In this document: piece by piece, positions 1 through 20,860 of the stretch
Layout: the number at the start of each line of letters is the position of its first letter
Position numbering within the stretch: the stretch's first letter is position 1
From: a virus
Strand: one strand, 5' to 3'
DNA: 22,976 bases
IMG/VR virus record: IMGVR_UViG_3300013126_002726
Span: 1 to 22,976 of that record
Notes under the pieces: generated by a model
The model's input: only the letters and a program-made list of their open reading frames with translations
Database searches by the model: none
Told to the model about the DNA's origin: nothing
Position numbers and translations under genes: made by a program

Positions 1-426
1 AAAGGTAATACTAAAGATATTGCATCTAGGTTTATTGATGTATATAAGTCACTTCCTCACAATGTGAAGAACCGACTGGTACTTGAATTAGAAGATAAAC
101 CCAACAGTTGGGGTTTAATTAAACTTTATGACTTAATTTATCAGAAAACAGGAATACCTATTACTTATGATTCACATCATTTTAGATTGAATAATCCCGA
201 AAATATTTCTCCTGAAAAAGCTATTTTAATGTGTATGGAAACTTGGGGTAAATATAAACCGTTATTTCATTATAGTAATGGAAAATCTAGTGTTACAGAC
301 AGAGCACATTCAGATTATGTTTATACTTTACACAAAGAATTATTTGAAAATGATGTTGATGTAGAATTTGAATTTAAAGCAAAAGACTATGCCATTGAAA
401 AATTTCAAACTGAATTTAAGGTGTAG
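1..426 (+). CDS. uvsE: UV-damage endonuclease (UvsE/UvdE family), C-terminal part
   Basis: The reading frame is open from base 1, so the gene begins before the window and only about 141 C-terminal residues are seen. UvsE/UvdE enzymes nick DNA 5' of UV photoproducts and use a metal-dependent TIM barrel. Visible family signatures are RLVLELEDK (the strand carrying the metal-ligand Glu), the following GIPITYDSHHF segment with paired His, FHYSNGKSS, and RAHSDYVY near the C-terminus, followed by DVEFEFKAKDYAIEKF. The GTG at 64 is an internal Val codon, not a start, because the homology begins upstream of it. The gene stops at TAG 424-426 and its last 11 bases overlap the 3' end of the opposing homing endonuclease gene. 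In a phage it would give photoproduct repair independent of the host. The family call is firm; the N-terminal half cannot be assessed. Confidence 0.85.
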   Translation, partial: KGNTKDIASRFIDVYKSLPHNVKNRLVLELEDKPNSWGLIKLYDLIYQKTGIPITYDSHHFRLNNPENISPEKAILMCMETWGKYKPLFHYSNGKSSVTDRAHSDYVYTLHKELFENDVDVEFEFKAKDYAIEKFQTEFKV

Positions 427-1093
427 TTCTCCATCCACCGCAAGTTTTTAATTTACCTTTTATTAACGAGGAAATATCCGAATTAACATTAAATTTTCTT
501 CTGAATTCTGATATATTATTGCCTGTATAAGTCCCGTGTAAATCGTGGTATAGAGTGAACTTTACACTATATTTTCCGGTATGTGATTCTCTTATATCAT
601 TTACTCTATACCATCCTTTACAGGAATTACATTTTTTACTAATAAGTGCATGAACTGAACTTACACTTGAACATCCTATAAAATCAGCTGCTTCGGCAAA
701 ACTATTAAATTTTTTGATTACATTAGTATGTTTGTTTTGTAATGAAAATTTTCTACCACATCCTTTTAATCCATCTCCTCCTTTTGTAAAATTAAACCCA
801 TTATGATAAGAATCGTATTTGGTTATATATTCTTTTTCTAATTCACCTAATTCTATTTTTACATTTTCTCTATTATTTGAATTTATATGTATTTCTTTTA
901 AAATTCCCCATTCTAAATCCGATTCTCCATATTTTATATAATGTCGTTGTAATTTGAGGTTGAAGTGTGAATTTGTCCTAAGTTCCGAATAGTGTCTTAT
1001 TTTTCTACGATTCAAGTCTACACTTTTTCCAATGTAATACTTGTTTTTTGTTTTAGATTTAATATAGTAAATTCCAATTTTTTTATTTTTCAT
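416..1093 (-). CDS. free-standing GIY-YIG homing endonuclease (I-TevI/Seg-like)
   Basis: The 225-residue protein opens with a GIY-YIG nuclease domain (residues 5-100): GIYYIK at 7-12, YYIG at 19-22, then NRR-x2-RHY around the catalytic Arg. NLKLQRHYIKYG (45-56) closely parallels the KLQRSFNKHG segment of T4 I-TevI. E88 in the EKEYI segment is the probable metal-binding Glu. The C-terminal half has two copies of a DNA-binding module of the NUMOD type, about 115-163 and 178-224. Each begins KF-S/T-L and ends C-K/G-GW. Such proteins are selfish mobile genes that cut a recognition site in related genomes and spread by repair. It lies alone on the - strand between two + strand genes and overlaps the uvsE 3' end tail to tail by 11 bases, which marks it as an insertion. 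Its cleavage site is unknown. Confidence 0.9.
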   Translation of the reverse strand: MKNKKIGIYYIKSKTKNKYYIGKSVDLNRRKIRHYSELRTNSHFNLKLQRHYIKYGESDLEWGILKEIHINSNNRENVKIELGELEKEYITKYDSYHNGFNFTKGGDGLKGCGRKFSLQNKHTNVIKKFNSFAEAADFIGCSSVSSVHALISKKCNSCKGWYRVNDIRESHTGKYSVKFTLYHDLHGTYTGNNISEFRRKFNVNSDISSLIKGKLKTCGGWRTTP

Positions 1094-1240
1094 ATAATAA
1101 TAATTATCATAAACTGGATTAAATATTCAAAATATAATTAATAAAGTTTTTGACACTTCTACTGACATAGTGTAAAGTTACTTCAAGTTAGTAATGAAGC
1201 TAACGAAATATAAAAGAAAGAAATAAATAAAAATAAAGTT
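1094..1240 (+). promoter_or_regulatory. divergent intergenic region with candidate promoter for the rightward gene run
   Basis: This 147-base gap lies between divergent genes. TTGACA at 1150-1155 is followed after 17 bases by TAAAGT at 1173-1178, a full -35 match with a 4/6 -10 match for a sigma-70-type promoter reading right. The leader then contains two mutually exclusive short hairpins: CTTCA 1181-1185 with TGAAG 1195-1199, and GTTAG 1187-1191 with CTAAC 1200-1204. It ends in an A-rich tract just before the ATG at 1241, with no Shine-Dalgarno motif. No convincing promoter for the leftward homing endonuclease gene was found. The promoter call rests on sequence match alone. Confidence 0.4.
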
Positions 1241-1450
1241 ATGATTATTCGTAAAAACAACAAAAAGCAGACCAATTTCGTTTATGAAAATGCTGCTAGT
1301 CTAGAAACATTCATCTCTTACCCATTTGCTGGGACCAAGCGAGCTGGTACTCGTTTGACTCTTCGTGCTGGTAAGACTCGTATTGACCTAAATGGTCGTC
1401 AAGTTAAGGCACTACGCAAGGTTCTTGCTACTGCCTCCCGTGTAAAGTAA
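1241..1450 (+). CDS. small basic protein, 69 aa, G+C-rich and probably highly expressed
   Basis: I do not recognise the family. The product is rich in Arg and Lys and poor in acidic residues (RAGTRLTLRAGKTRIDLNGR, then KALRKVLATASR), so it may bind nucleic acid. It is the first gene after a good candidate promoter. Base use is unlike the neighbours: about 42% G+C by hand count, and about 52% over 1321-1440, against 25-30% nearby. CGT, GGT, GCT and AAG codons, typical of strongly expressed genes, dominate. The ATG follows an A/T-only leader without Shine-Dalgarno, and the gene stops at TAA 1448-1450. Either strong selection for expression or recent acquisition from another genome could explain the composition. 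It is confidently a gene; function unknown. Confidence 0.75.
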   Translation: MIIRKNNKKQTNFVYENAASLETFISYPFAGTKRAGTRLTLRAGKTRIDLNGRQVKALRKVLATASRVK

Positions 1451-1464
1451 TTACATAATTAGAT

Positions 1465-1611
1465 ATGGGAAAAACATTTAGAAGAGAAAATGACTTTAGG
1501 AAAAAAAGTTCTAAGGTTAAAAATAAAAAATTGTCTAAATTAAATAATCCATATTTAAATAAAGGAGGAAAAGTAAGAAATTACTTGGATGAGATAGATA
1601 ATGAAGATTAA
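1465..1611 (+). CDS. small basic hypothetical protein, 48 aa
   Basis: A 48-residue reading frame starts at ATG 1465, 14 bases after the stop of the 69-residue gene, and ends at TAA 1609-1611, overlapping the next start (1601) by 11 bases. The product begins MGKTFRREND, has a long Lys/Asn-rich basic middle (KKSSKVKNKKLSKL), a LNKGGK segment and an acidic end (LDEIDNED). It is probably disordered and has no recognisable domain. It fills what would otherwise be a 150-base gap inside a tightly packed co-directional run, which supports it being real. An AAAGGAGG at 1561-1568 lies inside it, about 32 bases before the next ATG and so too far to act as that gene's ribosome binding site. Confidence 0.55.
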   Translation: MGKTFRRENDFRKKSSKVKNKKLSKLNNPYLNKGGKVRNYLDEIDNED

Positions 1612-1981
1612 ATCAATAATTGCATTAATAACTAGTGTAGTATTATTTTCATTATCTATTAAGTTTCAGAATATAACGCCATTCGCTGTATTGTGGTTGG
1701 CGTTATATTCTTTTTATTTGACAACTAAAGTAGAAGAGTATAAAAATACAATTCTTACTTTGATAGAGAACAATAAGAAAAAGTCTATTGAAGACAAAGA
1801 AAAGGTTGTAAAAGATTTAAATACTGTGTATCATAATCAACAGACTATTCTTACAGTAATCAATACATTAAGAACCAGAATTAATAATATTTATGGGAAG
1901 ACCCAAAAAGCAAAAATCCCCTCCTTCCAAGAAAGACTCAGTTCTATTGAACGACGAGAGTCAAACCTTAACAAAGACTAA
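1601..1981 (+). CDS. membrane-anchored coiled-coil hypothetical protein
   Basis: The 126-residue protein has two hydrophobic segments close together (about residues 4-20 and 27-41), forming a likely membrane hairpin. A long charged helical tail rich in Lys, Glu, Asn and Gln follows (about 43-126), likely a coiled coil. There is no cleavable signal peptide pattern. It overlaps the preceding 48-residue gene by 11 bases and shares its last 89 bases with the start of the clamp-loader gene in another frame. Codons 23-37 carry a perfect 12-bp inverted repeat. I do not recognise a family; an inner-membrane protein is as far as the sequence allows. Confidence 0.65.
   Translation: MKIKSIIALITSVVLFSLSIKFQNITPFAVLWLALYSFYLTTKVEEYKNTILTLIENNKKKSIEDKEKVVKDLNTVYHNQQTILTVINTLRTRINNIYGKTQKAKIPSFQERLSSIERRESNLNKD
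1669..1710. repeat. perfect 12-bp inverted repeat with 18-base loop, followed by T5
   Basis: GAATATAACGCC at 1669-1680 is the exact reverse complement of GGCGTTATATTC at 1699-1710. The loop spans 1681-1698 and TTTTT follows at 1711-1715. It lies inside the reading frame of the 126-residue membrane protein. In RNA it could form a stable hairpin resembling an intrinsic terminator or attenuator; in DNA it could be a spaced two-fold operator. No function is proven. Confidence 0.5.
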
Positions 1982-2420
1982 ATCTTTATTTGACCATATA
2001 ACTCAAATACGAGAAATTAAGAATCCTAAGTATTTTGATACACTTAGTTCTGCTGATATTAAGTCTTTTAATAAGTATACACTATTAATGGGATTGAGTA
2101 TGGATAAATCAATTATTGAAGAGATTGCATTTGTATCTAAGTATTTTGATATTCTTCCAGAAAAACATCTTTATACAGTATTGTGTGATTTGGTACCTCA
2201 TGAACGTAGATTTTGTAAATGGATTAAACCTAATAAAGTAAAGTTTAATAAAGAGTTAATTGAACTGGTTGTAAATAAATTTGAGGTTAGTAAAGATGAA
2301 GCTTATAGTTATTGTGTAACTTTTTTCAAGACGGAAGAAGGAATTAACAATCTGATTGATATATGTAAACAATATGGTAAATCAGACAAAGAAATAGAAG
2401 GGTTAATCGAAAATGAATAA
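1893..2420 (+). CDS. 62: sliding-clamp loader small subunit (T4 gp62-like)
   Basis: The 175-residue protein matches the layout of T4 gp62 (187 residues), the small subunit of the gp44/62 clamp loader that places the polymerase clamp on DNA. The best landmark is VPHERRFCKW at 101-110, which parallels VPRGKRYGKW in gp62. It is followed by a helix ending in NKFEVSKDEAYSY, which parallels KRYQVNTNDAINY. Residues 1-30 have no counterpart in T4 gp62: they begin MGRPKK, an AT-hook-like basic motif, and are Lys/Ser/Pro-rich. The start at 1893 lies 89 bases inside the preceding gene and lacks a Shine-Dalgarno sequence. The next Met is at residue 66, inside the conserved region, so 1893 is preferred. 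The stop overlaps the dNMP kinase start by 8 bases. Confidence 0.75.
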   Translation: MGRPKKQKSPPSKKDSVLLNDESQTLTKTKSLFDHITQIREIKNPKYFDTLSSADIKSFNKYTLLMGLSMDKSIIEEIAFVSKYFDILPEKHLYTVLCDLVPHERRFCKWIKPNKVKFNKELIELVVNKFEVSKDEAYSYCVTFFKTEEGINNLIDICKQYGKSDKEIEGLIENE

Positions 2421-3063
2421 AATTTATATAGGCGTATCTGGATTTGCTAGAAGTGGTAAAAACTTGTTTTGTGATATTGCAGAAAAGGTTCTTAAGGAAA
2501 AGTTTAATTTGACATCAAAAACATATGCTCTTGCGTATTTCCTAAAAAAGGATTGTGACCCATTTATTCAAGAAAAGTTAGGATTAAGTGTTTTTAGTGA
2601 AAAAACGGAAGACAAAAATCTATTTAGAGAGATGTTAGTATGGTATGGTTGTGTTAAAAGAAAACAAACTGAAGGTAGATATTGGACAGGACTCTTGCAT
2701 GAAGAGTTGAAGAAAGACACTAATGATATAAACTTTATCAGTGATATTCGATATGTAGAATACTCTGGAGATGAAGTATTTTGGTTGAAGAAAGAATTGA
2801 ATGGTAAATTAGTGCATATAAGTAAGTATACTTATGGATTTCCTACTGATGGTAGACATTATAGAGTAAATGATAATAGTAAGAAAATATATAATGAGGC
2901 TCCTAATCAACCTGAAGCGTTAAATGACCCTAAGATTAGATTTATTGCTGACTATAAATTAGAATGGGAACAGATTATGTCGGATGGTAATAAAGACCAA
3001 TTGATTAATAATCCTAAATTAAATGCTATTGTAGAAGAGTGTTTGACTACTCTATTGAAATAG
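2413..3063 (+). CDS. deoxynucleoside monophosphate kinase (T4 gp1-like P-loop kinase)
   Basis: The 216-residue protein should phosphorylate dNMPs to dNDPs for phage DNA synthesis, acting in the cytoplasm. Walker A is GFARSGKN at 10-17 (GxxxxGK with Asn in place of Ser/Thr or of the Asp of T4 gp1). RYWTGLLHEEL corresponds to MYWVKLFALDYL of gp1, and INFISDIRYVEY corresponds to the DTR segment that binds substrate. LVHISKYTYG matches the strand after it. It overlaps the clamp-loader gene by 8 bases; an AGAAGG lies about 12 bases upstream of the ATG. It ends at TAG 3061-3063, and the last 17 bases overlap the opposing small gene. Together with dUTPase at the other end of the window it frames the glycan locus with nucleotide-metabolism genes. 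Confidence 0.75.
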   Translation: MNKIYIGVSGFARSGKNLFCDIAEKVLKEKFNLTSKTYALAYFLKKDCDPFIQEKLGLSVFSEKTEDKNLFREMLVWYGCVKRKQTEGRYWTGLLHEELKKDTNDINFISDIRYVEYSGDEVFWLKKELNGKLVHISKYTYGFPTDGRHYRVNDNSKKIYNEAPNQPEALNDPKIRFIADYKLEWEQIMSDGNKDQLINNPKLNAIVEECLTTLLK

Positions 3064-3337
3064 TTCTTATGAATAAAGAGTTGTCATAAAACTCTATAAT
3101 TCTGTCTTGGGTAGAATCTATTAATTTGTTGATAGATTCTTGGTCTAAATTTCTAATAATATCAGCATATTTGTTATTACATTCAAACAATTTTTGACCT
3201 TTTTCTTTTGCTTTACAACTGCAAATGTTTTTGAATTGGTCTACACAAGCACATATTTGTATCAAATTTGAGTTTGATGACAATGTTTCTTTTGATTTAA
3301 TGTAATTGTAAAATTCACTTATATTATTTATTTTCAT
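3047..3337 (-). CDS. small Cys-rich hypothetical protein, 96 aa
   Basis: I do not recognise the family with certainty. The middle has clustered cysteines: C29 and C31 (CAC), C39 and C41 (CSC), then C53. This C-x-C ... C-x-C pattern could bind a metal or form disulfides. The N-terminal 20 residues are mixed polar and helical (ISEFYNYIKSKE), and the C-terminal half is a helical acidic segment (ADIIRNLDQESINKLIDS). It is the last gene of the leftward array. Its ATG overlaps the stop of the upstream membrane-protein gene as ATGA (3334-3337), and its TAG end overlaps dNMP kinase tail to tail by 17 bases. Confidence 0.6.
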   Translation of the reverse strand: MKINNISEFYNYIKSKETLSSNSNLIQICACVDQFKNICSCKAKEKGQKLFECNNKYADIIRNLDQESINKLIDSTQDRIIEFYDNSLFIRTISIE

Positions 3338-3663
3338 GGCGATAACTTATTGAATATAAAGTATATAATCAACGATGTTACATAAATAGTAGGAATTTCA
3401 ATCAATGAATAATTAAAAATAAATTTTCCTATAAAAATTAACCAAAAGTTAAGACAAAATGGACATGTTATTAATTTTGTAAAAAAATTATTATATTTTT
3501 GTAACAAAAATGAATGATATGTGAGAGTAAAATCCGTTTCTTTAGAAATTAAATATTCATTTACTTTAAACCATTTAAGTTTAAATAAGTGGATATATTC
3601 AACAAATGCTTCAGTATTAAACCAAACTACTAATAACATTGTATATAATAATATAAGTGTCAT
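3334..3663 (-). CDS. small membrane protein with TCPFCLNFW motif
   Basis: The start is placed at 3663, where ATG overlaps the stop of the upstream oxidase gene as ATGA, rather than at the upstream in-frame ATG (3729), which would run 70 bases into the oxidase. The 109-residue product has an N-terminal hydrophobic helix (residues 2-16) and a polar loop. Next comes TCPFCLNFW (66-74) leading into a second helix (to about 84), then a third (about 90-105). C67-x2-C70 followed by an aromatic membrane helix resembles small DUF1360-like membrane proteins that carry a CPxCxxFW signature. That assignment is tentative and no function is established. Confidence 0.6.
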   Translation of the reverse strand: MTLILLYTMLLVVWFNTEAFVEYIHLFKLKWFKVNEYLISKETDFTLTYHSFLLQKYNNFFTKLITCPFCLNFWLIFIGKFIFNYSLIEIPTIYVTSLIIYFIFNKLSP

Positions 3664-4829
3664 AAATTTATTTTTTTGATTATATAATCTGCTATTGCTA
3701 AAGATGATGTTGCTGCTGGACTCGGACAATTAATTACATTACAGACATTATCTGTTATTACTATTTCAAAATCTTGAATTAGTTCTCCTTTATCAGACAT
3801 AGCTTGAGCTCTAACTCCAGCTCCACATTTTATTAAATCGTCTTCTTTTATATTAGGAATTAATTTCTGAAGTGCTTTAGTAAATTGTTTTTTACTAATA
3901 GATTGATATAATTCTTTAAAACACATATATTTGTGTTTAAGTATAAATTTCCAAAATCCTTTAAAAGAGATATAATCAAATATGTCAATTAAATTAATTT
4001 TTGATAATGAATACCCTTCTCTAGAAAAAGCTAATACTGCATTTGGTCCGGCTTCAATTCCACCATTAATTAAACGTGTAAAATGAACTCCTAGAAAGGG
4101 ATATTTAGAATCTGGTACTGGATAAATTAGATTATTTACTAAATGTTCTGATTCTAGTTTCAATTTGTAATATTCTCCTCTAAAAGGAACAATTCTAGAT
4201 TTTATATTTGTCGTTAATTTTGAAATTCTATCTGAATATAGGCCTGTACAGTTGATTAATATATCATAGTTATAACTGTCATTTGTAGTATATACTTTAT
4301 TTTTTTCTATATTAATTACTTTTGAATTCAATTTGATTGTATGACCATTATTAATAATTATTTCAGATAACTTATCAATTACTTTTTTATAATCAACTAT
4401 TCCTTCTTGTGGAACGTGTATAGCTTCTATACCTCCTACATTTGGTTCTATTTTTAACATTTCTTCTCTATTTAATTTTCTTAAATTTTTTAACCCATTT
4501 TTTGTTCCTCGGTCAAATAATTCATTTAATTTTATAGATTCTTCTTCATTTGTTGAAACTACTAATTTTCCGCATATTTTGTGAGGTATATTATGTTCTA
4601 TACAAAAATTAGTCATCTGTTGTATACCATCAACAGATAACAATGCTTTTAACGATCCTGGTTTATAATATAAACCACAATGTAATACGCCACTATTATT
4701 AGTGCTTTGATGTTTACCTACATCATTTTCTTTTTCAAGTACGGTAATTTTTAAATTGTTTTTCGTTGATAATTTATATGCTATTGTTAATCCAACGATT
4801 CCTCCACCGACAATTACTACATTTTTCAT
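3660..4829 (-). CDS. lhgO: L-2-hydroxyglutarate oxidase-like FAD enzyme
   Basis: The 389-residue protein is a DAO-superfamily flavoprotein. It has the FAD-binding GGGIVG at 8-13 and the E of VLEKE closing the Rossmann beta2. LhgO signatures are SGVLHCGLYYKPGSLKA (47-63), the PVPDSKYPFLGVHFTRL segment, GGIEAGPNAVLAFSREGY, and GAGVRAQAMSDKGEL near the C-terminus. LhgO oxidises L-2-hydroxyglutarate to 2-oxoglutarate and passes electrons to the respiratory chain. It is coupled by ATGA overlaps on both sides, so it belongs to the glycan operon rather than being an isolated metabolic gene. It might regenerate 2-oxoglutarate spent by a sugar dehydrogenase, or oxidise a related hydroxy acid or sugar. 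The family assignment is strong; the physiological substrate is open. Confidence 0.8.
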   Translation of the reverse strand: MKNVVIVGGGIVGLTIAYKLSTKNNLKITVLEKENDVGKHQSTNNSGVLHCGLYYKPGSLKALLSVDGIQQMTNFCIEHNIPHKICGKLVVSTNEEESIKLNELFDRGTKNGLKNLRKLNREEMLKIEPNVGGIEAIHVPQEGIVDYKKVIDKLSEIIINNGHTIKLNSKVINIEKNKVYTTNDSYNYDILINCTGLYSDRISKLTTNIKSRIVPFRGEYYKLKLESEHLVNNLIYPVPDSKYPFLGVHFTRLINGGIEAGPNAVLAFSREGYSLSKINLIDIFDYISFKGFWKFILKHKYMCFKELYQSISKKQFTKALQKLIPNIKEDDLIKCGAGVRAQAMSDKGELIQDFEIVITDNVCNVINCPSPAATSSLAIADYIIKKINL

Positions 4830-6493
4830 ATTATTTCATACTCAATTTCAGTTTCTGAAAATCCCCAACATTCGTCGTTTCTGGATATCATAATATGTTC
4901 ATGATCTTTATATGTATCAAAGTACTCTACCCAATCCATAGCATTGTTATAAAATTGTTTACTTGGAGATGTACCATCATTTGCCATTCCTGTATGACTC
5001 ATATGATATAAAGGAACGTCATATATATCTTTAAGTTCAAATCCATATAAAACAGATTTCTTTTGTACATTAGTATCAACGAAACATGCATATTTCATTT
5101 GTTCTTCATATCCTCTCATTTTCAACCATATATTTTTTGTTGCAAATTGAAAATCTCCGCAACAGTTAAATAAACTCCATTTGTCATTTGGAGTGACTTT
5201 TGCTGGAAAATATCTCGGTTTGCTGGTTTTATTTAAATGATTGATATATTTATCTAAATTATTTATGTTAGATATTACGTCTTTATATTCAATATCTCGT
5301 CTACTTAATGCGTATAGTGTATGTTTATTTGATTTTTTAATGAAATCTTGTAAAATTTCTTTAGTTGGTGGGATTATATCTGTTGTAGACAATACAATAT
5401 ATTCAGCGTCTGTTCTTCTAATGCCTATATTAAATGAGAATACTGTAGAACATGCTTGAGCATTTGAATCATAATTTTCTAAGATTTTGGCAATTGTCGG
5501 TTCAATTACAAAGTGTTTTAATCTTCCTGTTTTTGGTATTTCATCTATTATCTCATACAAGAAACTTTTTTTTTCAGAATTCCAATCAACATAAATTACT
5601 TCGTCAAATGTTTCTAACATTTTAGTAATATGAATTTTGAATCTTACTTTTTCTTTATAACCGTCATTTCTTCCGAAAACTATGACGCATGTTTTACCTG
5701 GTATTTTATCTGGTAAGTTGTATTTTTTAATATCATCTTTATGAACACATAAAAAGTTTCCATTATCACATACTTTGTATGTAAAGTATTTGAATTCTCC
5801 CATATCTAATGGTCCAGCGCAATCTTTAAGATTGTCTAAAGGAGAAATGTCATAGATTTTATATCCCATTGAATCGATTACATTAAAATAATCCTCAAGT
5901 TCAGATTCGGTTAAAAACTTAAATGCTTCTACCATTAATACTGGTTTATTAGTTTCTATTAATGGTTTAATTGTTTTTAAAATTTCTTTATCATATCCTT
6001 CTGCATCTATTTTAATGAATTTTATTTTTGATATATCATCAGAATAGTTTTTGTTCAAGAAGTCTATCAAGTTTATACCATCAACTTCTTGTTCATATGT
6101 ATGAGAATTTTTAAAATTCTTGTCGTTTAAATTATTTAAAAATCCTCCGTTAGAACCTATTCCGTAAATTTTAGGATCACTATAATTAAAAGTATATTTT
6201 TTATTTTCTTTGGTACACGCTAATTGATGAGGTATGATGTTTAATCGAGAATTTAACTCTGCATTTTCTTTTAAAGACTTAAATACTACTGGATTTGGTT
6301 CAAATGAAATTACTTTTTTAGCGCATGAACCAAATAATAAAGAAAACCATCCAACATGTGCGCCTATATCTAATACAACACATTCTTTATCTATAAGTTG
6401 TGAAAATCGTTGATGTCTAAACAAAAACGTTTCTTCTGAAAAATCCGTTGAATATATTATTTTTCCGATTGATGTAACTTCTTTTGTAATCAT
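4826..6493 (-). CDS. fusion: FkbM-type methyltransferase + GT-A glycosyltransferase
   Basis: Two domains lie in one 555-residue protein. Residues 1-245 are an FkbM-family SAM methyltransferase, with the SAM motif LDIGAHVGWFS (41-51), the acidic FEPN (64-67) and FIKIDAEGYDKEIL near 162, the usual FkbM motif. Residues about 267-555 form a GT-A-like glycosyltransferase. It opens with CVIVFGRND, has RRTDAEYIVLSTTDI at the probable DxD-equivalent site, CCGDFQFATKNIWLKMRGYEE, and an acceptor-side HMSHTG near the end. The likely job is adding a sugar and O-methylating it or its neighbour in one polypeptide. ATGA overlaps couple it to the epimerase upstream and the oxidase downstream. Both families are common in surface-polysaccharide loci; substrates cannot be read from sequence. 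Confidence 0.8.
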   Translation of the reverse strand: MITKEVTSIGKIIYSTDFSEETFLFRHQRFSQLIDKECVVLDIGAHVGWFSLLFGSCAKKVISFEPNPVVFKSLKENAELNSRLNIIPHQLACTKENKKYTFNYSDPKIYGIGSNGGFLNNLNDKNFKNSHTYEQEVDGINLIDFLNKNYSDDISKIKFIKIDAEGYDKEILKTIKPLIETNKPVLMVEAFKFLTESELEDYFNVIDSMGYKIYDISPLDNLKDCAGPLDMGEFKYFTYKVCDNGNFLCVHKDDIKKYNLPDKIPGKTCVIVFGRNDGYKEKVRFKIHITKMLETFDEVIYVDWNSEKKSFLYEIIDEIPKTGRLKHFVIEPTIAKILENYDSNAQACSTVFSFNIGIRRTDAEYIVLSTTDIIPPTKEILQDFIKKSNKHTLYALSRRDIEYKDVISNINNLDKYINHLNKTSKPRYFPAKVTPNDKWSLFNCCGDFQFATKNIWLKMRGYEEQMKYACFVDTNVQKKSVLYGFELKDIYDVPLYHMSHTGMANDGTSPSKQFYNNAMDWVEYFDTYKDHEHIMISRNDECWGFSETEIEYEII

Positions 6494-7026
6494 ATATCTC
6501 TTTTTGATAAAATTGGGTTGTTAATTGGCCAATAGACATCAAACTCTGGATTATTCCATTTTATGTGAATTTGACTTTCTATTGGAACATAAGATTTTGT
6601 TAGTTTATAATGAAAAATACATTCATCTGATATAACTAGATGGGCATTTACACATCCTGCTGGTACCAATACTTGTAATCTATTTTTATCATTTAACTGA
6701 AAATATTGAATGTTTTTATATGTAGAAGAATTTGGTCTTGTATCTATTACTACAAAATATACACTGCCTTTTAGTACGTCAATTAGTTTCCAATTTTCTT
6801 TATCGCCGTGAAATCCTCTTAATACATTTTTTGTTGAGTTTGAGAAAGAATCAATAACAAATTTTAAATCTTTGTCTTTCAACTCTGGGATTGATTTTAT
6901 AAGTGAAGAATAGTGTTCTTCATTGTATGTTTCAAAGTTTTCTCCTCTATGGTCATAGAAAGAATCTGGTTGTATTACAATTAAATCGTTTATGATTTTA
7001 CTGAGTTCTTTTATTTTAGATTTCAT
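6490..7026 (-). CDS. RmlC-like nucleotide-sugar 3,5-epimerase (cupin)
   Basis: The 178-residue protein has the length and signature order of dTDP-4-dehydrorhamnose 3,5-epimerase. It has FYDHRGENFETYN near the start, NVLRGFHGDK with the catalytic-type His, GSVYFVVIDTRPNSSTYK, LQVLVPAGCVNAHLV, YKLTKSYVP with the conserved Tyr, and a C-terminal VYWPINNPILSKRD. RmlC-type enzymes epimerise 4-keto-6-deoxy nucleotide sugars at C3 and/or C5. In this operon the neighbour upstream is a ColD-like 3-dehydratase, so the substrate may be a 3-deoxy-4-keto sugar, where only C5 would be epimerised. ATGA overlaps lie at both ends. No rmlA, rmlB or rmlD partner is present in the window. Confidence 0.8.
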   Translation of the reverse strand: MKSKIKELSKIINDLIVIQPDSFYDHRGENFETYNEEHYSSLIKSIPELKDKDLKFVIDSFSNSTKNVLRGFHGDKENWKLIDVLKGSVYFVVIDTRPNSSTYKNIQYFQLNDKNRLQVLVPAGCVNAHLVISDECIFHYKLTKSYVPIESQIHIKWNNPEFDVYWPINNPILSKRDI

Positions 7027-8198
7027 ATATTGTTTAATACATTTAGTAAAGTATCAATTTTATCCCGTTGTAATCCTGGATAATTTCCAATATACCAACT
7101 AAAGTTATGAACATGATCTACAACTTTGAAATCGTCATAATTAATTTTAAAATGTTTTTTAATGTATGGTTGACGAAGTTGATTTCCGCCTCCAGACATA
7201 CCTTTTCTGAATTCTATTGCATTTTCTTTTAGTCTTAATTCTACATTTAGACTTGTAACGACTGATGAATCTTTTAATATTACTGTAAATGCATAATTAC
7301 ATTGTCCTTCTAGTTCTAAATCAGTAATATATTTTGATGAATCCAACTTACTCATAAAGTAGTTGTAATTATCTATTCTCTTTTTATTATTATTATCTAG
7401 TTTCTTTAATTGAGATAGTCCTAGAACAGCATTGAGTTCGGTACTTCTAAAGTTATGAGACGGACGCAAGAATATAAAATCTTTATTGAGATCTGGATTT
7501 TTATTGATAATTTCATTTCTCATAGATTCATTAGTCATTTCTCTGATCATTCCATGAGATCTTAATGCTCTGCAAATTTGATAAAACCGTTCATTGTCGG
7601 TACAAATCATTCCACCTTCTATTGTAGACATATGATGCGCAAAGTAAAAACTGAAGTTGCTTACAAATCCGTATGTTCCTACCTTTTTACCTTTAAATGT
7701 AGTTCCGTGAGATTCGCATACATCTTCAATTAGATGGATATTATTTTCTTTACAAATGTTCAATAGTTCATCAGTCAATCCATTAATACCAAGAACGTGA
7801 GTCAAGAATATTGCTCTAGTTTTAGGTGTAATTAATTTTTTTAGTTTTTCTAAATCAAACGACAGATTCTTTAGGTTTATATCACAGAATACAGGAGTAA
7901 ATTTACTAAATATTACGGAAGAAACATCTGATATCCATGTCAACGGTGGCAAGATTACTTCTCCATCTTCATATAGTTCATTTAATGCTAATATGGTCAA
8001 TTCGTTTGCACTAGCACCACTATTAACCATTAAGTTATATTTTGTGCCTAACCATTGTCCCCATACATTTTCAAATTCAACTACTTTAGGACCATTAGTT
8101 AATTTTGGTATGGGTGTTTGACTAAGAAAATTAATTAGTGAATTGATATCTTCTTTATCAATATTGTCTTCCATTAATGGTAGATAAAAGTTGTTCAT
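7023..8198 (-). CDS. ColD/RfbH-like PLP (PMP)-dependent sugar 3-dehydratase, DegT family
   Basis: The 391-residue protein has the DegT/DnrJ/EryC1 fold: SGASANE (60-66) in the phosphate-binding loop, the cofactor-stacking W88, and ED159 contacting the pyridine nitrogen. Aminotransferases of this family have Lys in SFYPTK. Here the segment reads SFYFAHHMSTIEGG, placing H188 at the Lys position. That swap, with AHH(M/I)(T/S), is the hallmark of GDP-4-keto-6-deoxymannose 3-dehydratase ColD and of the E1/RfbH CDP-sugar 3-dehydrases. These enzymes use PMP and His to remove the C3 hydroxyl. The length matches ColD (388), not the longer [2Fe-2S] E1 enzyme (437). I therefore call a 3-deoxysugar-forming dehydratase, not an aminotransferase. 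ATGA overlaps link it to RmlC-like and nucleotidyltransferase genes. Confidence 0.8.
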   Translation of the reverse strand: MNNFYLPLMEDNIDKEDINSLINFLSQTPIPKLTNGPKVVEFENVWGQWLGTKYNLMVNSGASANELTILALNELYEDGEVILPPLTWISDVSSVIFSKFTPVFCDINLKNLSFDLEKLKKLITPKTRAIFLTHVLGINGLTDELLNICKENNIHLIEDVCESHGTTFKGKKVGTYGFVSNFSFYFAHHMSTIEGGMICTDNERFYQICRALRSHGMIREMTNESMRNEIINKNPDLNKDFIFLRPSHNFRSTELNAVLGLSQLKKLDNNNKKRIDNYNYFMSKLDSSKYITDLELEGQCNYAFTVILKDSSVVTSLNVELRLKENAIEFRKGMSGGGNQLRQPYIKKHFKINYDDFKVVDHVHNFSWYIGNYPGLQRDKIDTLLNVLNNI

Positions 8199-8617
8199 AG
8201 TTTTGTTAATAACTCACTTGATGAATATATTTTTGGTAAATCTAGAATTGATTCTATTATTCCTACTTCTTTACATACGTCAGATTCAGAAGTGACTAAA
8301 TTAGAACCTTTTCTATCTCCACTATTAAAAAATATCAAGCAATCTTCTTTATATTTATTTTTTAAGTGTCTAAGAGTTTGACATTGAGTTTTATCTTTGT
8401 CAATAGAAATAAATACTTCATCTACCGATTTCAAATTAAATATAATTTTTGAACGATGATTTTCGTCCATGAATTCTTTTGTTCCTTTTAATTGTCTTTG
8501 ATAGTCGTTATTAATTACAGCTATTAACTTGTCACAGTTTTGTTTTGCTGCATTTATATATTCAATATGACCATAATGAACTGGATTAAAATAACCTGAT
8601 ACAATTCCTATTTTCAT
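8195..8617 (-). CDS. HxGH-motif nucleotidyltransferase (TagD/RfaE2-like cytidylyltransferase)
   Basis: The 140-residue protein is a compact Rossmann-type nucleotidyltransferase. SGYFNPVHYGHIEYI (7-21) has the HxGH motif that binds the NTP, and SGDRKG (99-104) resembles the GGDR of RfaE2. YSSSELL (131-137) stands at the usual ISS(T/S)xI(R/V) position but lacks its final Arg. The length equals glycerol-3-phosphate cytidylyltransferase or the RfaE2 domain. It should transfer CMP or AMP to a sugar-1-phosphate or polyol phosphate. It stands directly after the GHMP kinase (3-base gap), so the pair could phosphorylate and then activate the same sugar. The nucleotide and the substrate are not decided by the sequence. 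Confidence 0.75.
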   Translation of the reverse strand: MKIGIVSGYFNPVHYGHIEYINAAKQNCDKLIAVINNDYQRQLKGTKEFMDENHRSKIIFNLKSVDEVFISIDKDKTQCQTLRHLKNKYKEDCLIFFNSGDRKGSNLVTSESDVCKEVGIIESILDLPKIYSSSELLTKL

Positions 8618-8620
8618 AAT

Positions 8621-9583
8621 TTAACTAGAAAAAATTTCTGATGTTCCTGTTTTATCAAAATTAAATTCTAATATATTACCGTTGTATTTTTCTACTATTT
8701 TATTTTTTACGATTGGGTCTGAAATTACCAATACAAATCCACAACCTCCACTTCCTAATAATTTTGCTCCATATGCACCTATTGACATAACATCATCAAT
8801 GATTTCTTTTATTTTATCATTTGAAATTAACGGAGATATTTTTTCTTTATTGATCCAACTTTGATAAAGCAATTCTCCTATTGTTTTAATATCTTCTTTT
8901 AAAAATGAAGAATAAGATAATTTAGATAATTCTAAAATATTTAGCTTGTTTTCAATATCATTTTCATGAGATTTTGCTATTTTGTCTGTATTTCGTTGTT
9001 CGTATGTATATATTAGTGTAAATGATTTTTGTAATTCTTCAATAAATTCTTCTGTTATAGGTAAAGGTTTAACAAAAAAATCTCCGTTTTTATTTATTTC
9101 AATTGAATTTAGTCCTTTTGCAAATGGCCAAATTTGATCTTGTATTCCTCCACTTTCTTTTAAAATTTCTCTTTCAATGTGAATTGCGGATTTGACAATT
9201 TCTTTTTTGTTAATAGATTTATTTTGAAGTTTATGTATCAAATAAGACATTCCTACACAATATGTAGAAGATCCACCTAAACCTGTTCTCGCAGGTATAT
9301 CAGAATATGAAAAAAATTCAATTGGTGTATTAATACTATGATAGTTTAATGTTTCTCTTATTAATGGATTTTGTATTTGTTCTATTGTATCAACCAATTC
9401 GTATTTAGAATATGTACATAAATACTGTTTTGAGAGTATAGAAGGTCTATATCTCATTGATAAATAACAATATTTATTTATACTAGCACCAATAATGAAT
9501 GATCCGTATTTTTCATAGAATCCTTTATAGTCTGTAGATCCTCCGAATAAAGATATTCTAAATGGTGATTTAACTATTGTCAT
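8621..9583 (-). CDS. GHMP-family sugar kinase (HddA-like)
   Basis: The 320-residue protein is a GHMP kinase of the type seen in D-glycero-alpha-D-manno-heptose-7-phosphate kinase (HddA) and related anomeric sugar kinases. Motif 1 is SPFRISLFGGSTDY (6-19). Motif 2, the phosphate loop, is ARTGLGGSSTY (98-108). GGIQDQIWPFAKGLNSIE (145-162) is the HddA-like Q-D-Q segment, and the motif-3 region is GAKLLGSGGCGFVLVIS near the C-terminus. It would make a sugar-1-phosphate using ATP. A GGAG about 10 bases before the ATG (inside the preceding gene's end) is one of the few plausible Shine-Dalgarno sites here. The neighbouring nucleotidyltransferase is a natural next step. Confidence 0.8.
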   Translation of the reverse strand: MTIVKSPFRISLFGGSTDYKGFYEKYGSFIIGASINKYCYLSMRYRPSILSKQYLCTYSKYELVDTIEQIQNPLIRETLNYHSINTPIEFFSYSDIPARTGLGGSSTYCVGMSYLIHKLQNKSINKKEIVKSAIHIEREILKESGGIQDQIWPFAKGLNSIEINKNGDFFVKPLPITEEFIEELQKSFTLIYTYEQRNTDKIAKSHENDIENKLNILELSKLSYSSFLKEDIKTIGELLYQSWINKEKISPLISNDKIKEIIDDVMSIGAYGAKLLGSGGCGFVLVISDPIVKNKIVEKYNGNILEFNFDKTGTSEIFSS

Positions 9584-9584
9584 A

Positions 9585-10121
9585 TTATTTTTCTCCGTAA
9601 TAATCTCCCCACTCGACTAATATAGTAGATCTGTTATCGGTTCTTTCATATGCATATTGAAATGATTCAAAGATTTGATATGGTTCGTCCAGTCTAATGA
9701 TATCGACTGTATCACACATTGATCTGAATCCTCCTGTAAAATCACTTATATGTTGGTGTTGAGGATGTAACGGACGTTGAGATCCTATAGAAGTTCTGAT
9801 AATTACTTTTGGTTTATATCCACCATCTGACATTATTTTCATTTTATCTAGATGATTTACCAATTGATTTGCAGCTAATAATAGAAAATTCCATCTAGGA
9901 TAGATAGAAATAGGAACGGTTCCGTTTAATGCCATTCCAATTGTCATTCCCATTTGCATGTCCTCGTTGACTGGCATTTCTAATAGTTTAGATCTATCTA
10001 CATCTTTCAACGTATTTGTCATACCAGTACCGGCATATTCTACTGCTTGACCTAAAAACAAAGTGTTTTCTTTAGCTGCTAACCAATCCATTGATCTTTT
10101 TAGTTCGTCAAAATATTTCAT
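9585..10121 (-). CDS. TPP-dependent enzyme, E1 beta-like small subunit
   Basis: The start is placed at 10121, four bases after the alpha subunit stop. An in-frame ATG at 10226 would run 101 bases into alpha, and the extra residues do not look like this family. The 178-residue protein resembles the Pyr-domain (beta) half of pyruvate/acetoin dehydrogenase E1. MPVNEDMQMGMTIGMALNG (49-67) holds the Glu (E53) that activates thiamine. PISIYPRWNFLLLAANQL matches the family's region facing alpha, and HPQHQHISDF matches the loop of active-site His residues. It ends without the C-terminal transketolase domain, being half the usual ~330 residues. It should form an alpha2beta2-type complex with the adjacent alpha subunit and carry out a 2-carbon ketol or acyl transfer; the substrate is unknown. 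Confidence 0.75.
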   Translation of the reverse strand: MKYFDELKRSMDWLAAKENTLFLGQAVEYAGTGMTNTLKDVDRSKLLEMPVNEDMQMGMTIGMALNGTVPISIYPRWNFLLLAANQLVNHLDKMKIMSDGGYKPKVIIRTSIGSQRPLHPQHQHISDFTGGFRSMCDTVDIIRLDEPYQIFESFQYAYERTDNRSTILVEWGDYYGEK

Positions 10122-10125
10122 AATA

Positions 10126-10731
10126 TTAAAATTGAATTCTTTTGCCTGCTCCAGCGTGTGGATATTTTGTTTCGTACTTGTAATATTTAATTTTGCGTGT
10201 TTCTCTTGTAAAGAATAATTCATCACAATTCCAAACTTTTAATGTGTCTGTACAAACGGATTTGCCATTATCTTCTATTACATAAGTAATTGGTAAGTCA
10301 TGATTTACAGAATATTTCCAATTTTCAAAAAAGGTTCCCGTTTCTGATGTCATATCACCAACGAAACACCATACTTTTTCATTTGATTTCTTTCTTTTAA
10401 TGTCTAATGCTACTCCTGTTGCGATAGGAATATTGCCTGTTACAATTGCAGATGAATAAATTTTATATTCTGGATAACATAATGTAATTGATTTACCTTT
10501 AAGAATGTCTGATTTAACTGTTTCCGGTGGAACTCCTTTCAATAAGCATTGATAATGAGATCTCCATGTACAAAAAACCCAATCATTTTCTTCTACATTA
10601 TTAAATATTTCAATCATTTGTGATTCATTTCCGGAATACAAATGTACGGGCGCTTTAATTTTTGAATTATTAAATTCTTCTGCAATATTTTCTTCAAATG
10701 AAATCAAATCTGTTGATGTATACTTTTTCAT
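10126..10731 (-). CDS. TPP-dependent enzyme, E1 alpha-like small subunit
   Basis: The 201-residue protein resembles the PP-domain (alpha) half of pyruvate/acetoin dehydrogenase E1. It has VHLYSGNESQ near 29-38 and FCTWRSHYQCLLKG (53-66), matching the tyRsHg-kG family motif. The TPP/metal motif starts at GD 125-126 and ends at EDN 153-155, the expected spacing of about 30. It lacks the ~100 or more C-terminal residues of the usual ~330-residue subunit. It lies directly upstream of the beta subunit with a 4-base gap, so both should be made together. In a sugar locus a TPP enzyme can add a 2-carbon branch to a keto sugar, as proposed for split E1-like genes in avilamycin synthesis. That role here is inference. 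Confidence 0.75.
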   Translation of the reverse strand: MKKYTSTDLISFEENIAEEFNNSKIKAPVHLYSGNESQMIEIFNNVEENDWVFCTWRSHYQCLLKGVPPETVKSDILKGKSITLCYPEYKIYSSAIVTGNIPIATGVALDIKRKKSNEKVWCFVGDMTSETGTFFENWKYSVNHDLPITYVIEDNGKSVCTDTLKVWNCDELFFTRETRKIKYYKYETKYPHAGAGKRIQF

Positions 10732-10748
10732 ATAATCTATATAGTAAT

Positions 10749-11546
10749 TTAAAACATCAAATATTTATTTCTATTTAATTTCATGATATTATAAATTGTA
10801 TTCCATTTATCGACCATTCGATTGTCAATTTGAACTTTACTATTTTCTGATGCTTCGGCAACTCTTTTTGATATATCATCAATTTCGCTTTTTTTATTAT
10901 GAATAGAATAATGATTAACTCCAAATATTGAAGTAAAATCTAAAATTGCAACATTTGTTGCTTGCATCACCATAAAATTCAAACATGTATCTGCGCTCCA
11001 GGTTGGTATTTCTTTTGGATAAAATTCTCCTAAATCATTACAATAATTTGAAGACAACAATGGAAAACAACAACTTGAATCCATTGGATTTACATTGTCA
11101 TCTGAAATCCAATGTGTATCATCTGATATACGAATATAATAATATAAATTATTTTCATCTATATCTTTATAAACATTGCGGTCACATTGTTGTAAACCAA
11201 GATGTAAAAGTTCGTCCCAATTTTCCGTTTTGATTTCACAATCGTTTCCTAAAATCCATGTAAAATATGATTTGCTTCTTAATTTTAAACCCAAATCATA
11301 ATAATCATTTGGTAAATCTAAATTTTCTTTTTGCTTTCTACAAATATAATAGAAATCATAAGTTAATGTACTGGAAATAGAATTAAAAAAATTAATTGTA
11401 TCCGTATCATCTTGATCTACTATTGAAATTACTTCAATTGCAGACTTGTCTTTTGTTTTTTCTTCTATAGAAATTAATAATTTTTTTACCAAATCCAATC
11501 TTGACCGTGATGGAAATATAATTGATACTAATTTAGTTTTTTTCAT
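10749..11546 (-). CDS. GT-A-fold glycosyltransferase (GT2-like)
   Basis: The start at 11546 is preferred over the in-frame ATG at 11570 because AGAGGA stands 4 bases before it, a good Shine-Dalgarno in a region where most genes have none. It also shortens the overlap with the upstream oxygenase gene to 14 bases. The 265-residue product begins with a family-2-like strand (LVSIIFPSRSRLDLVKKLL), then EVISIVDQDD, and has WILGNDCEI (98-105) at the nucleotide-sugar/metal site. The C-terminal half (IPTWSADTCLNFMVMQAT) looks like the acceptor side. It probably transfers a sugar at the inner face of the membrane. Donor and acceptor are unknown. Confidence 0.7.
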   Translation of the reverse strand: MKKTKLVSIIFPSRSRLDLVKKLLISIEEKTKDKSAIEVISIVDQDDTDTINFFNSISSTLTYDFYYICRKQKENLDLPNDYYDLGLKLRSKSYFTWILGNDCEIKTENWDELLHLGLQQCDRNVYKDIDENNLYYYIRISDDTHWISDDNVNPMDSSCCFPLLSSNYCNDLGEFYPKEIPTWSADTCLNFMVMQATNVAILDFTSIFGVNHYSIHNKKSEIDDISKRVAEASENSKVQIDNRMVDKWNTIYNIMKLNRNKYLMF

Positions 11547-12396
11547 AAAATCCTCTGAACATATATTCATTGTGGGGTGTTTTTGGTATTATATCAAACA
11601 ATGTTTCTTTAGAAATTTTAAAATTATTATTTCCATCGTGAAAATGCATATTATTTAAATACAATCCGTATCTCCACCATACCAACAATCTATTGCCTTG
11701 TTGCAAAGGTTGTCCTCTATGAATCGCAAATGTGTCAGCTAATATTGCTGTTCCTGCTTTTCCTGTTATAACATTTTCTTTTCCATTTTCTTCACCGTCT
11801 TTTGTTCTTGAATAATAAACATGAGGGCCATTTGATTCATCGATGTCTGTTAAATAAATAAAAAATGCGAGAAATTTAAAATCATCGTGATCTCTATGAT
11901 TATTTTGAGTGCCATATATACCACCTTTAATTTTATGCCACCAACAATTGATTGAATACATAGTAGGAAATGAACCTAAATAAGATTGTGCTAGTGATAC
12001 TATGTGTGGATCTATAAGTTTATCTAGAATTGTATTATTTTGTAGTAATACATTAGGTTCATAACTAAAAGTTGAATATTCGTATGAATCATCCCAGTTT
12101 CTTAATTTTTTGTCACTATATTTAGCGACATGTGCATTGTATCCTTGTTTATTTTTTAAATAAAACAAGATATTGTCGATTTCATTTTTATTTAAATAGT
12201 TGTCAAATTTTATAAATCCGTCTTTATTTAAAGTATCCAATTCTTCTTGTGTATGTGTAATTGGGACTTGCGGTACATATGAATTTACAATTTTATTTAT
12301 ATATTTTGTTGCTTCATTTCTTAACCCGACATTTAAATACATATGAATGTCATTCTTATCGAAATTTTTATGTATTTCCGATTCTATGATATTCAT
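11533..12396 (-). CDS. phytanoyl-CoA dioxygenase-type Fe(II)/2-oxoglutarate oxygenase
   Basis: The 287-residue protein carries the PhyH-family core. NNHRDHDDFKFLAFFIYL (165-182) holds the iron-binding H-x-D, and DIDESNGPHVYY (184-195) is the typical following strand. AIHRGQP (224-230) gives the distal iron-binding His, and a following Arg in LLVWWRYG should bind 2-oxoglutarate. These enzymes hydroxylate, desaturate or epimerise small molecules with O2 and 2-oxoglutarate. Relatives are frequent in polysaccharide and natural-product loci. The first ~45 residues are not part of the usual domain. It starts one base after the upstream methyltransferase stop. The substrate may be a sugar, a lipid part or a polyamine; the sequence does not say. 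Confidence 0.75.
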   Translation of the reverse strand: MNIIESEIHKNFDKNDIHMYLNVGLRNEATKYINKIVNSYVPQVPITHTQEELDTLNKDGFIKFDNYLNKNEIDNILFYLKNKQGYNAHVAKYSDKKLRNWDDSYEYSTFSYEPNVLLQNNTILDKLIDPHIVSLAQSYLGSFPTMYSINCWWHKIKGGIYGTQNNHRDHDDFKFLAFFIYLTDIDESNGPHVYYSRTKDGEENGKENVITGKAGTAILADTFAIHRGQPLQQGNRLLVWWRYGLYLNNMHFHDGNNNFKISKETLFDIIPKTPHNEYMFRGFYEKN

Positions 12397-12397
12397 A

Positions 12398-12970
12398 TTA
12401 TTTGTTATATATAAAACCTACACCTCTATTACTGCCATTGGCTTGATTGTTATATTCAACACGATGTGAATTACTCCAGTTAGTCAATGATTCTTTAATA
12501 AATTCGTAAGTAAATGGTTGATTGTTATATGTATCAAATCCTAACTCTGGATGATTCGGTACAAGAAAATCGTGTACAATAATAATTCCTTTGTTCTTAG
12601 GGAGTATTTTAATTTCATCATTAATTGGCCAATAACTTTCCCAATGTGCATCTAAAAAGAAAATTGTATGTTCCACATCAATACTGTCAATAATTGAAGA
12701 CAAAACTTGTGGAGAATTTCCCACATACAATTTTACATTTGTTCTGTTTGAATTGTCAATTCTGTTTTTTGCAATTGATATTGATTCTTCTAATATATCA
12801 ATTCCGATTACTTTTTCTACCAAATTAGAAAATTCAAGTGTAGATCTACCTTCGTGTACTCCGGTTTCTACAATTGTATTTATATCATATTCTTTTATTA
12901 TATCAATGAATTTTTGTTTTAAAAAAGTGTCGTCTAATGCGTATTTTCCGTATGTATTTATTAATGGCAT
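12398..12970 (-). CDS. class I SAM-dependent methyltransferase
   Basis: The 190-residue protein has a Rossmann methyltransferase core. IVETGVHEGRSTLEFS (33-48) is the SAM-binding motif, VIGIDI (54-59) carries the acidic ribose-binding residue, and VEHTIFFLDAHWESYWP near 99-115 resembles the acidic strand of Methyltransf_24-like sugar or cephalosporin-type enzymes. IIIVHDFLVPNHPELGF follows. It probably O-methylates a sugar of the glycan. The ATG at 12970 is preceded by an A/T run and by a 91-base gap, the longest gap between genes inside the leftward array, so an internal promoter there is possible. It is separated by one base from the oxygenase gene. Confidence 0.7.
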   Translation of the reverse strand: MPLINTYGKYALDDTFLKQKFIDIIKEYDINTIVETGVHEGRSTLEFSNLVEKVIGIDILEESISIAKNRIDNSNRTNVKLYVGNSPQVLSSIIDSIDVEHTIFFLDAHWESYWPINDEIKILPKNKGIIIVHDFLVPNHPELGFDTYNNQPFTYEFIKESLTNWSNSHRVEYNNQANGSNRGVGFIYNK

Positions 12971-12978
12971 ATATTTTT

Positions 12979-13061
12979 TTATTGTTTTAAAAAGTTTATT
13001 AGATATCTTTCGTTTGTTAGGTATCTTATTATTGAATTTGGATTATTCCAAAATAGATATA
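12979..13061 (-). other. protein-like remnant in the gap, possible frameshifted tail of the radical SAM gene
   Basis: One frame of this gap, not the frame of the upstream radical SAM gene, reads a plausible protein ending. It includes IIYLFWNN and then PNSIIRYLTNERYLINF, stopping at TAA 12979-12981 just before the methyltransferase start. It has no ATG of its own and opens right after in-frame stops near the end of the radical SAM gene. A single missing base near 13065-13070 would join the two frames. The gap also contains the near-palindrome TTTGGATTATTCCAAA (13037-13052). It may be a vestige or chance. Confidence 0.3.
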
Positions 13062-14600: not shown

Positions 14601-14605
14601 ATATT

Positions 14606-15289
14606 TTATTTATATAATACTAACAACTTATCACACTGATGAAGACCTGAATATTGATATTTATGTCGTGGTTCTATAAATAGAATATTTGAATAATACT
14701 GTTTAAATGGTTCTATTGCTTCTGCAAATTTTTCATCTACATAATCTTTACCTTTATGCACTACTGGATAAATATCTTCTATTATCATTATACCTCCTGG
14801 TTTAATATATTTATGCATTACTTCAATAAAATTAATTTGAGTATCAAATTTATGACAACTGTCTTCAATTACGACATCAAATTCTCCGCCTGATCTATCC
14901 ATAGCATCTATAATTGTATCCTTAAAATAAGCGTCTAACCAAAAATATTTTGTATTTGGTAAATTTTCATTTTCCATACTATCTAAAAATTCTTTTACAT
15001 GATCAAATCCAAAAATATCAGCTTCTTTAAAATATTCTCTGAAACATCTCATTGATTGACCATATTGAACTCCGATTTCTGCTAATCTAAATTTTTTGTT
15101 TCTTAATCTTGAAAATAAAAAATCATAAATTCCTGTATAAGCATGTCCATATTCAATTGGATTGTGTACATAATTTGCTATTGGACTACTTAATGGTGAT
15201 TTATCAGTTCTATATTTTGCTCCTAATAAACACAAATCAGTGACTGATTCGGTAGAATCGATTATTAATTTATTTATTTTAAAACTCAT
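14606..15289 (-). CDS. SAM-dependent sugar O-methyltransferase (MycE/cephalosporin-hydroxylase-like group)
   Basis: The 227-residue protein shows the pattern of a class of macrolide- and polysaccharide-sugar methyltransferases. GAKYRTDK (23-30) comes first, then GHAYTGIYDFLFSRLR (48-63), then the SAM motif LAEIGVQYGQSM (69-80). FGFDHV carries the acidic residue, FDVVIEDSCHKFDTQ the metal- or acceptor-side residues, and GGIMIIEDIYP follows. It likely adds a methyl group to a hydroxyl of a nucleotide sugar or glycan. Its ATG overlaps TGA 15286-15288, the natural end of the upstream epimerase frame, as ATGA. This coupling only works if the epimerase is translated past its internal TAG, so expression here may depend on readthrough or on re-initiation. 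Confidence 0.75.
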   Translation of the reverse strand: MSFKINKLIIDSTESVTDLCLLGAKYRTDKSPLSSPIANYVHNPIEYGHAYTGIYDFLFSRLRNKKFRLAEIGVQYGQSMRCFREYFKEADIFGFDHVKEFLDSMENENLPNTKYFWLDAYFKDTIIDAMDRSGGEFDVVIEDSCHKFDTQINFIEVMHKYIKPGGIMIIEDIYPVVHKGKDYVDEKFAEAIEPFKQYYSNILFIEPRHKYQYSGLHQCDKLLVLYK

Positions 15290-20187: not shown

Positions 20188-20190
20188 AAT

Positions 20191-20859: not shown

Positions 20860-20860
20860 A

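Follow-up and report, generated by a model that had tools for sequence, protein, structure and literature searches.

PC4-like domains are typically built from a meander of strands followed by a C-terminal helix, and many of those described bind single-stranded nucleic acid, often through a concave sheet (PMC8545432, PMC11042805). BpuR, a PUR protein of Borrelia, is described as a translational repressor of its own mRNA, whose 5′ region it binds (PMC4347634), and stem-loops in the 5′ untranslated region that protect bacterial mRNAs have also been described (PMC7509114). Here, we analysed a 22,976-nucleotide stretch of viral DNA (IMG/VR record IMGVR_UViG_3300013126_002726; the whole stretch is hereafter the window), which carries a small basic gene whose leader and predicted product can be compared with these systems. 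The family to which it belongs is among the most codon-biased genes of phages that we encountered solely as metagenome contigs, but no named family in the libraries searched matches it.

A small basic gene among T4-type replication genes

The first-pass annotation had placed an open reading frame of 69 residues at 1241-1450, and this was present as a real gene of 69 codons. Its product is basic, as annotated, with a net charge of +13 and a pI of 11.6. The gene and its surroundings comprise:

64-426, plus strand: UvdE-like UV endonuclease, C-terminal part, the upstream neighbour (the window starts inside the gene; the start lies outside the listed ORF)
1150-1178, plus strand: sigma70-like promoter, TTGACA-17-TAAAGT, of a type conserved in the family leaders
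1187-1204, plus strand: predicted hairpin GTTAGT-AATGAA-GCTAAC at the predicted transcript 5′ end
1205-1240, plus strand: A-rich leader preceding the start codon, with no structure predicted
1241-1450, plus strand: gene for the 69-residue basic protein, with an ATG start, G+C-rich and with capsid-like codons, predicted to form a β-sheet and a C-terminal helix
1893-2420, plus strand: gp62-like clamp loader subunit (T4), downstream neighbour (phrog_225)
2413-3063, plus strand: deoxynucleoside monophosphate kinase-like, downstream neighbour (phrog_139)

Relatives were found in another 65 IMG/VR contigs, the longest of 303 kb, and fell into five protein clades. Clade A comprised identical and 88-96% identical relatives in 13 contigs, and the larger clade B (MYTR...) was opened by a degenerate DNA pattern. 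A profile search returned 56 loci, which included the 13 of clade A and added clade C, and a looser pattern yielded nine further contigs and clades D and E. Across six members computed, pI ranged from 9.7 to 11.6 and net charge from +5 to +14. Variable C-terminal tails rich in Lys, Arg, Ala and Thr extended some members (L104, L107-L114, L122, L123, L128, L132 and L133) to 84-106 residues; many members, including that of the window, were tail-less.

Gene order was compared in 35 of the 65 contigs. A gp62-like match was located 3′ of the family gene in 34/35 loci (the exception, L018, ends 100 bases past the gene) and a UvdE-like match 5′ of it in 33/35. In most loci, CobS-like, CobT-like and winged-helix-looking genes preceded the UvdE-like gene. 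The CobS-like gene matches phrog_249 (porphyrin biosynthesis), and the labels CobT-like and winged-helix-looking are our own reading of proteins with weak or no family match.

The T4-type replication genes seen in the window were the gp62-like clamp loader and the dNMP kinase; no capsid gene was seen there. Among five long contigs, gp23 (PF07068) was detected in two (E 5e-72 and 2.8e-59) and gave no match in three, which are possibly partial, and the 173-kb contig also carried gp32-like, UvsX-like and tail tube proteins. The presence of gp23, gp32, UvsX and gp62 marks the phages carrying this family as T4-like by gene content, in a wide sense only, because their best capsid relatives among the matches listed for named phages were Microcystis phage Mel-JY01 and Flavobacterium phage immuto. 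The 132-kb contig (G007) additionally encodes, at L206:9653-12426, a predicted tmRNA (tag AEDNVVSYDFSYDDVVALAA) and eight tRNA genes. Most of the remaining window (3660-22171, minus strand) is a long cluster reading like surface-sugar biosynthesis, with ORFs resembling glycosyltransferases, aminotransferases, epimerases, kinases and methyltransferases; all were read from their ORFs except the glycosyltransferase (20861-22171), which was searched against families.

A GIY-YIG homing endonuclease gene (416-1093, minus strand) lies between the UvdE-like gene and the promoter of the 69-residue gene. Positions 301-1154, including the 3′ end of the UvdE-like gene, were 93.7% identical over 856 columns to the same place in a clade D contig (L136), where the endonuclease counterpart occupies 1408-2082. 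The downstream proteins of L136 were 38-65% identical to those of the window; compared to the clade A contig L024, its UvdE was 61% and its CobT-like fragment 96% identical. Another clade D contig, L137, had no such match to the endonuclease region at that place. This pattern suggests recent movement of the endonuclease with co-conversion of its flank. Adjoining the insertion, L136 also carries a tandem duplication around the -35 element of the family gene.

Similarity searches

Outside these contigs, the family was not recovered. A tblastn search of four members against 50,697 phage records returned nothing credible (two matches at E 8-9, one of which was read and proved unrelated). The family profile gave two weak matches in nine phage records, including Flavobacterium phage immuto, Microcystis phage Mel-JY01 and Rhodothermus phage RM378, one of them partial and the other interrupted by stops, and the ORFs listed near gp62 in LR756508 and Mel-JY01 included no such gene. 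No relative was found in 72,556 plasmids by tblastn with one member, and no credible one in 84,980 prokaryote species genomes by pattern-seeded scans, which required exact short peptides and which a distant relative could escape. Pfam, NCBIfam and PDB sequences likewise gave no significant match; a likeness to ribosomal protein S9 was set aside at E 0.2 or worse.

The nearest described sequence family was phrog_14777, a phage family of 63 positions with no function named, which 30/31 members matched at E ≤10 (best E 4.4e-5). The window protein matched it weakly (E 0.12), along residues 32-65. Searched in T4, P-SSM2, HTVC008M and five other phages, phrog_14777 gave a single match, within a longer frame of phiM12 (E 0.024), and in six further records it gave two weak matches, both in Mel-JY01. 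Within the libraries and collections searched, and the literature on PC4-like and phage proteins consulted short of a full survey, we consider the family undescribed.

Composition and codon usage

The annotated G+C of about 42% over the gene and 52% over 1321-1440 was reproduced (41.9% and 51.7%). The latter is the maximum of the window at the 120-bp scale (mean 27.3%, SD 4.6%), the second-highest place reaching 42.5% at 22029. This contrast was general: in 57/57 loci measured, the window included, the gene exceeded its own locus in G+C (mean 0.464 vs 0.325, smallest gap 0.093), and the clade D and E members read showed it too. RNA structure within the coding region was considered as a cause and rejected, three 120-nt folds being not unusual (z -1.1 to -1.6). 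Fourfold sites were identical at 0.78 in the family gene vs 0.56-0.77 in four neighbours (at most seven clade A loci), a synonymous-site conservation that is only modestly higher.

Codon usage of the kind found in highly expressed genes had also been proposed, and the bias is real. The commonest codons were CGT, AAG, GCT and ACT, and GC3 was 0.314 compared to a median of 0.171 and a highest other value of 0.276 among 32 window ORFs, hand-picked from a mechanical ORF list. When codon weights were taken from a relative's capsid gene (gp23), the gene ranked first of the 32 by CAI (0.582; next 0.473; median 0.414).

Comparison with the capsid gene in long relatives, a check proposed in the first-pass annotation and made here again using mechanical ORF lists, also supported strong expression as far as codons can indicate it. 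When the 122 ORFs of the 132-kb contig were scored against gp23, the family gene came top by likelihood ratio and fifth by CAI, and its GC3 (0.382) equalled that of gp23 (0.381; median 0.242). The four ORFs above it by CAI were the ORF beside gp23, the tail tube, gp32 and a 1304-residue ORF; tail tube and gp32 were named by likeness to PHROG-tested proteins of relatives, and we read the other two, from position, size and sequence, as scaffold-like and sheath-like. Of 230 ORFs in the 173-kb contig, the family gene had the highest G+C and the tenth-highest GC3; some of the ORFs that outrank it look spurious. The signal was weaker in the 303-kb contig (41% G+C), where the gene ranked 65th of 405 ORFs by CAI, fifth by likelihood ratio and outside the top 16 in G+C, which were dominated by one G+C-rich stretch. 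This contig (G002) has a distinct G+C-rich stretch at ~107-127 kb, possibly an acquired island.

Similar composition in many neighbours outside the window, which the first-pass annotation regarded as counting against a special status for the gene, was seen in part. A few upstream genes of L024 (CobS-like, a small winged-helix-looking gene and a 104-residue ORF) reached 44-46% G+C over 180 bp, but the ranks in the 173- and 132-kb contigs set the family gene apart; in the latter, the CobS-like (0.546) and winged-helix-looking (0.531) genes fell below it (0.624) by CAI. Two further types of small, G+C-rich protein gene whose products look basic and winged-helix-like were noticed in these phages (L024:6680-7063; G003 138073-138435 and 69562-69804; G007 14219-14584). 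The G003 pair had no PHROG match at E 0.01 and the L024 protein none at E 10.

A conserved promoter followed by a predicted 5′ hairpin

The site at 1150-1178 had been called the best promoter match in the window, but over bases 1-20000 two minus-strand sites score 11/12 and this one scores 10. Many other sites in the window tie with it at 10/12, seven more of them in the last 3 kb, and promoter-like sites were no commoner than in shuffles (135 vs 158, bases 1-20000). Support for the promoter comes instead from its conservation: TTGAC, a spacer of 16-17 nt and TAnnnT were found in 44/45 distinct leaders. No such site was listed before gp23 in the 132-kb contig or before the tail tube gene in three contigs. 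Two of the long contigs each contain one further ORF with a strict promoter and some hairpin in front of it; although rare, the arrangement is therefore not unique to the family gene.

All 45 distinct leaders had a predicted hairpin at, or close to, the 5′ end of the mRNA. In 43/45, a nearly constant stem, GTTRG/CYARC, lay 3′ of the promoter, as located by a search expression that favoured paired forms. The stem began 36-37 nt from the start of the -35 element in 42/45 leaders (39 in L103 and 42 in L150; in L127 the start was mispicked), which corresponds to 7-8 nt past the -10 element at 16-17 spacing, the predicted start of the transcript. G-U wobbles occurred among the five outer pairs in 8/43 leaders, one of which also had a compensated pair; covariation is slight because these pairs were otherwise constant. 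The sixth pair forms in 32/43. Stronger evidence comes from clades C and E, which have hairpins of unrelated sequence at 39 and 42 nt (z -2.9 and -2.4), and from folding, as the first 36 nt out-folded all but at most 10 of 200 shuffles in 44/45 leaders. The lone miss, L127, had a wrongly chosen start, and its hairpin was found by the stem search. The 303-, 173- and 132-kb contigs each had a single copy of the common hairpin with a GAAA tail, before the family gene, and a looser pattern gave one extra stray match in two of the three.

A palindrome immediately after a promoter could also be a DNA operator for a repressor, and both its placement and the near-constancy of its stem would suit that function. 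However, the G-U pairs preserve RNA pairing while breaking DNA symmetry, and clades C and E carry their unrelated stems at or near the same place, so that we regard an operator as rather doubtful. An RNA hairpin that persists despite changes of sequence is a small and testable candidate for 5′-end mRNA protection or self-regulation. Capsid-like codons, the conserved promoter and the 5′ hairpin together support the high expression proposed by the first-pass annotation, as far as sequence allows.

Predicted structure and an invariant sheet face

An AlphaFold2 model based on a 31-member alignment reached a pLDDT of 92.5, compared to a poor 52.6 for an earlier model from a shallow alignment. It comprises strands 2-6, 11-18, 21-28, 38-43 and 46-50 and a helix at 52-68. 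Comparing element order only, the last four strands and the helix match the PC4-like order, and strand 2-6 is an additional, fifth strand at the N terminus. Foldseek gave no match at E 0.001 against the PDB (best E 0.51) or against viral models. In a second look with VIA, the top rows were unrelated proteins (KhtT N-domain, Z 7.0), and 13/50 rows, all below KhtT, were PC4/Sub1, PUR or MRP1/2 domains (Z 4.3-5.8); Sub1 and MRP1/2 we take to be PC4-like. Because Foldseek found nothing at that threshold and the top VIA rows were unrelated, the likeness to PC4 and PUR may reflect just a common arrangement, a caution that VIA itself attaches to Z scores of this size. Pfam PC4, PUR and Whirly were not among the eight families listed for the 31 members (E ≤10); distant PC4-like proteins can lack a sequence match to these profiles.

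One face of the sheet was nearly invariant across the five clades. Mean entropy was 0.25 bit for 11 positions on this face vs 1.40 for 13 on the other, and 8/11 positions were invariant vs 2/13 (36 distinct proteins, ~6 effective), with faces assigned from the residue pattern rather than from coordinates. The truncated L134 did not enter the entropy count, and alignment A5 was built without the long tails and without several near-duplicates. The invariant residues are T11, F13, E22, S26, R38, T40, R42 and R47, joined by conservative positions F/Y24 and D/E49; the other face varies except at L39 and L50. Allowing any choice of face, 17/5000 permutations were as extreme with weighting and 26 without.

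Possible roles of the protein

On balance, and with moderate confidence, we favour an abundant nucleic-acid-binding protein made under an early-type promoter in a group of large T4-like phages. A role in nucleic-acid binding is plausible from the charge, the predicted fold and the invariant face, although the least basic member computed carries a net charge of only +5. Transcription would start at the host-type (sigma70-like) promoter, and the first bases of the transcript would fold into the short hairpin, which might shield the 5′ end from decay or provide a site through which the protein regulates itself. With its capsid-like codons, the message would then be heavily translated. The product, a β-sheet with a C-terminal helix of the PC4/PUR type and probably a dimer, could use the Arg, Phe and Thr residues of the invariant face to contact single strands of DNA or RNA (duplex DNA being a less likely target) while the phage genome is replicated and transcribed. 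Coating of single-stranded DNA is not a vacant role, because these phages already have gp32. A bolder version, in which an unrecognised early core protein is made in capsid-like amounts, binds single strands in the PC4 manner, controls itself through the 5′-terminal hairpin and serves in coating or as an RNA chaperone beside gp32, seems to us unlikely as a whole.

The same invariant face may instead contact a protein. Glu22 and Asp/Glu49 could serve a protein partner, and a small, basic product of a sigma70-like promoter, with no relative found in prokaryote genomes by the pattern-seeded scans, would be in keeping with an abundant early host-takeover factor that binds host RNA polymerase, the ribosome or another protein. 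The gene, however, is set among replication genes in conserved order and not in a variable cluster, and we judge this role improbable.

T4 heads carry internal proteins, and by analogy a very basic protein of predicted high abundance, extended in some members by the tails described above, might coat duplex phage DNA in the cell or travel in the head. This sits poorly with the early-type promoter, none of the kind being listed before the gp23 or tail tube genes, and with the many tail-less members, the window's included; such a chromatin-like or packaged protein is distinctly unlikely. Recent acquisition of a G+C-rich foreign gene, with composition inherited from its source rather than shaped by expression, is suggested by the sharp local contrast but contradicted by the same neighbours and contrast in five protein clades and by codons resembling the phage's own gp23, and is very improbable; the G+C peak looks like codon selection.

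Comparison with known systems

The nucleic-acid-binding reading that we favour places the family closest to PC4-like domains (PC4/Sub1, PUR and the PC4-like SSB of phage T5, the last compared by description only). The family model shares their β-meander and C-terminal helix; the family differs in having no sequence match to them, an extra N-terminal strand and weak structural scores. AcrIIA22, a prophage-encoded PC4-like DNA nickase, is, going by its published description, likewise phage-associated, very small and built on a PC4-like sheet, but it is described as having no helix and as being located in hypervariable regions, whereas the present family has a helix and a fixed replication-gene context. 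Borrelia Pur-alpha appeared among the structural rows of the second look, and BpuR offers a precedent for a self-regulating 5′ site, although it is a cellular protein and self-regulation in the phage family is hypothetical.

This family illustrates how important unknown genes of uncultured phages can be recognised from their codon bias. T4 gp32 is also a nucleic-acid-binding protein with high codon bias in these phages, but it is a different protein encoded by a separate gene. If the family does encode an abundant PC4-type binder, it would represent a second major nucleic-acid-binding protein beside gp32 in the T4-like replication set.
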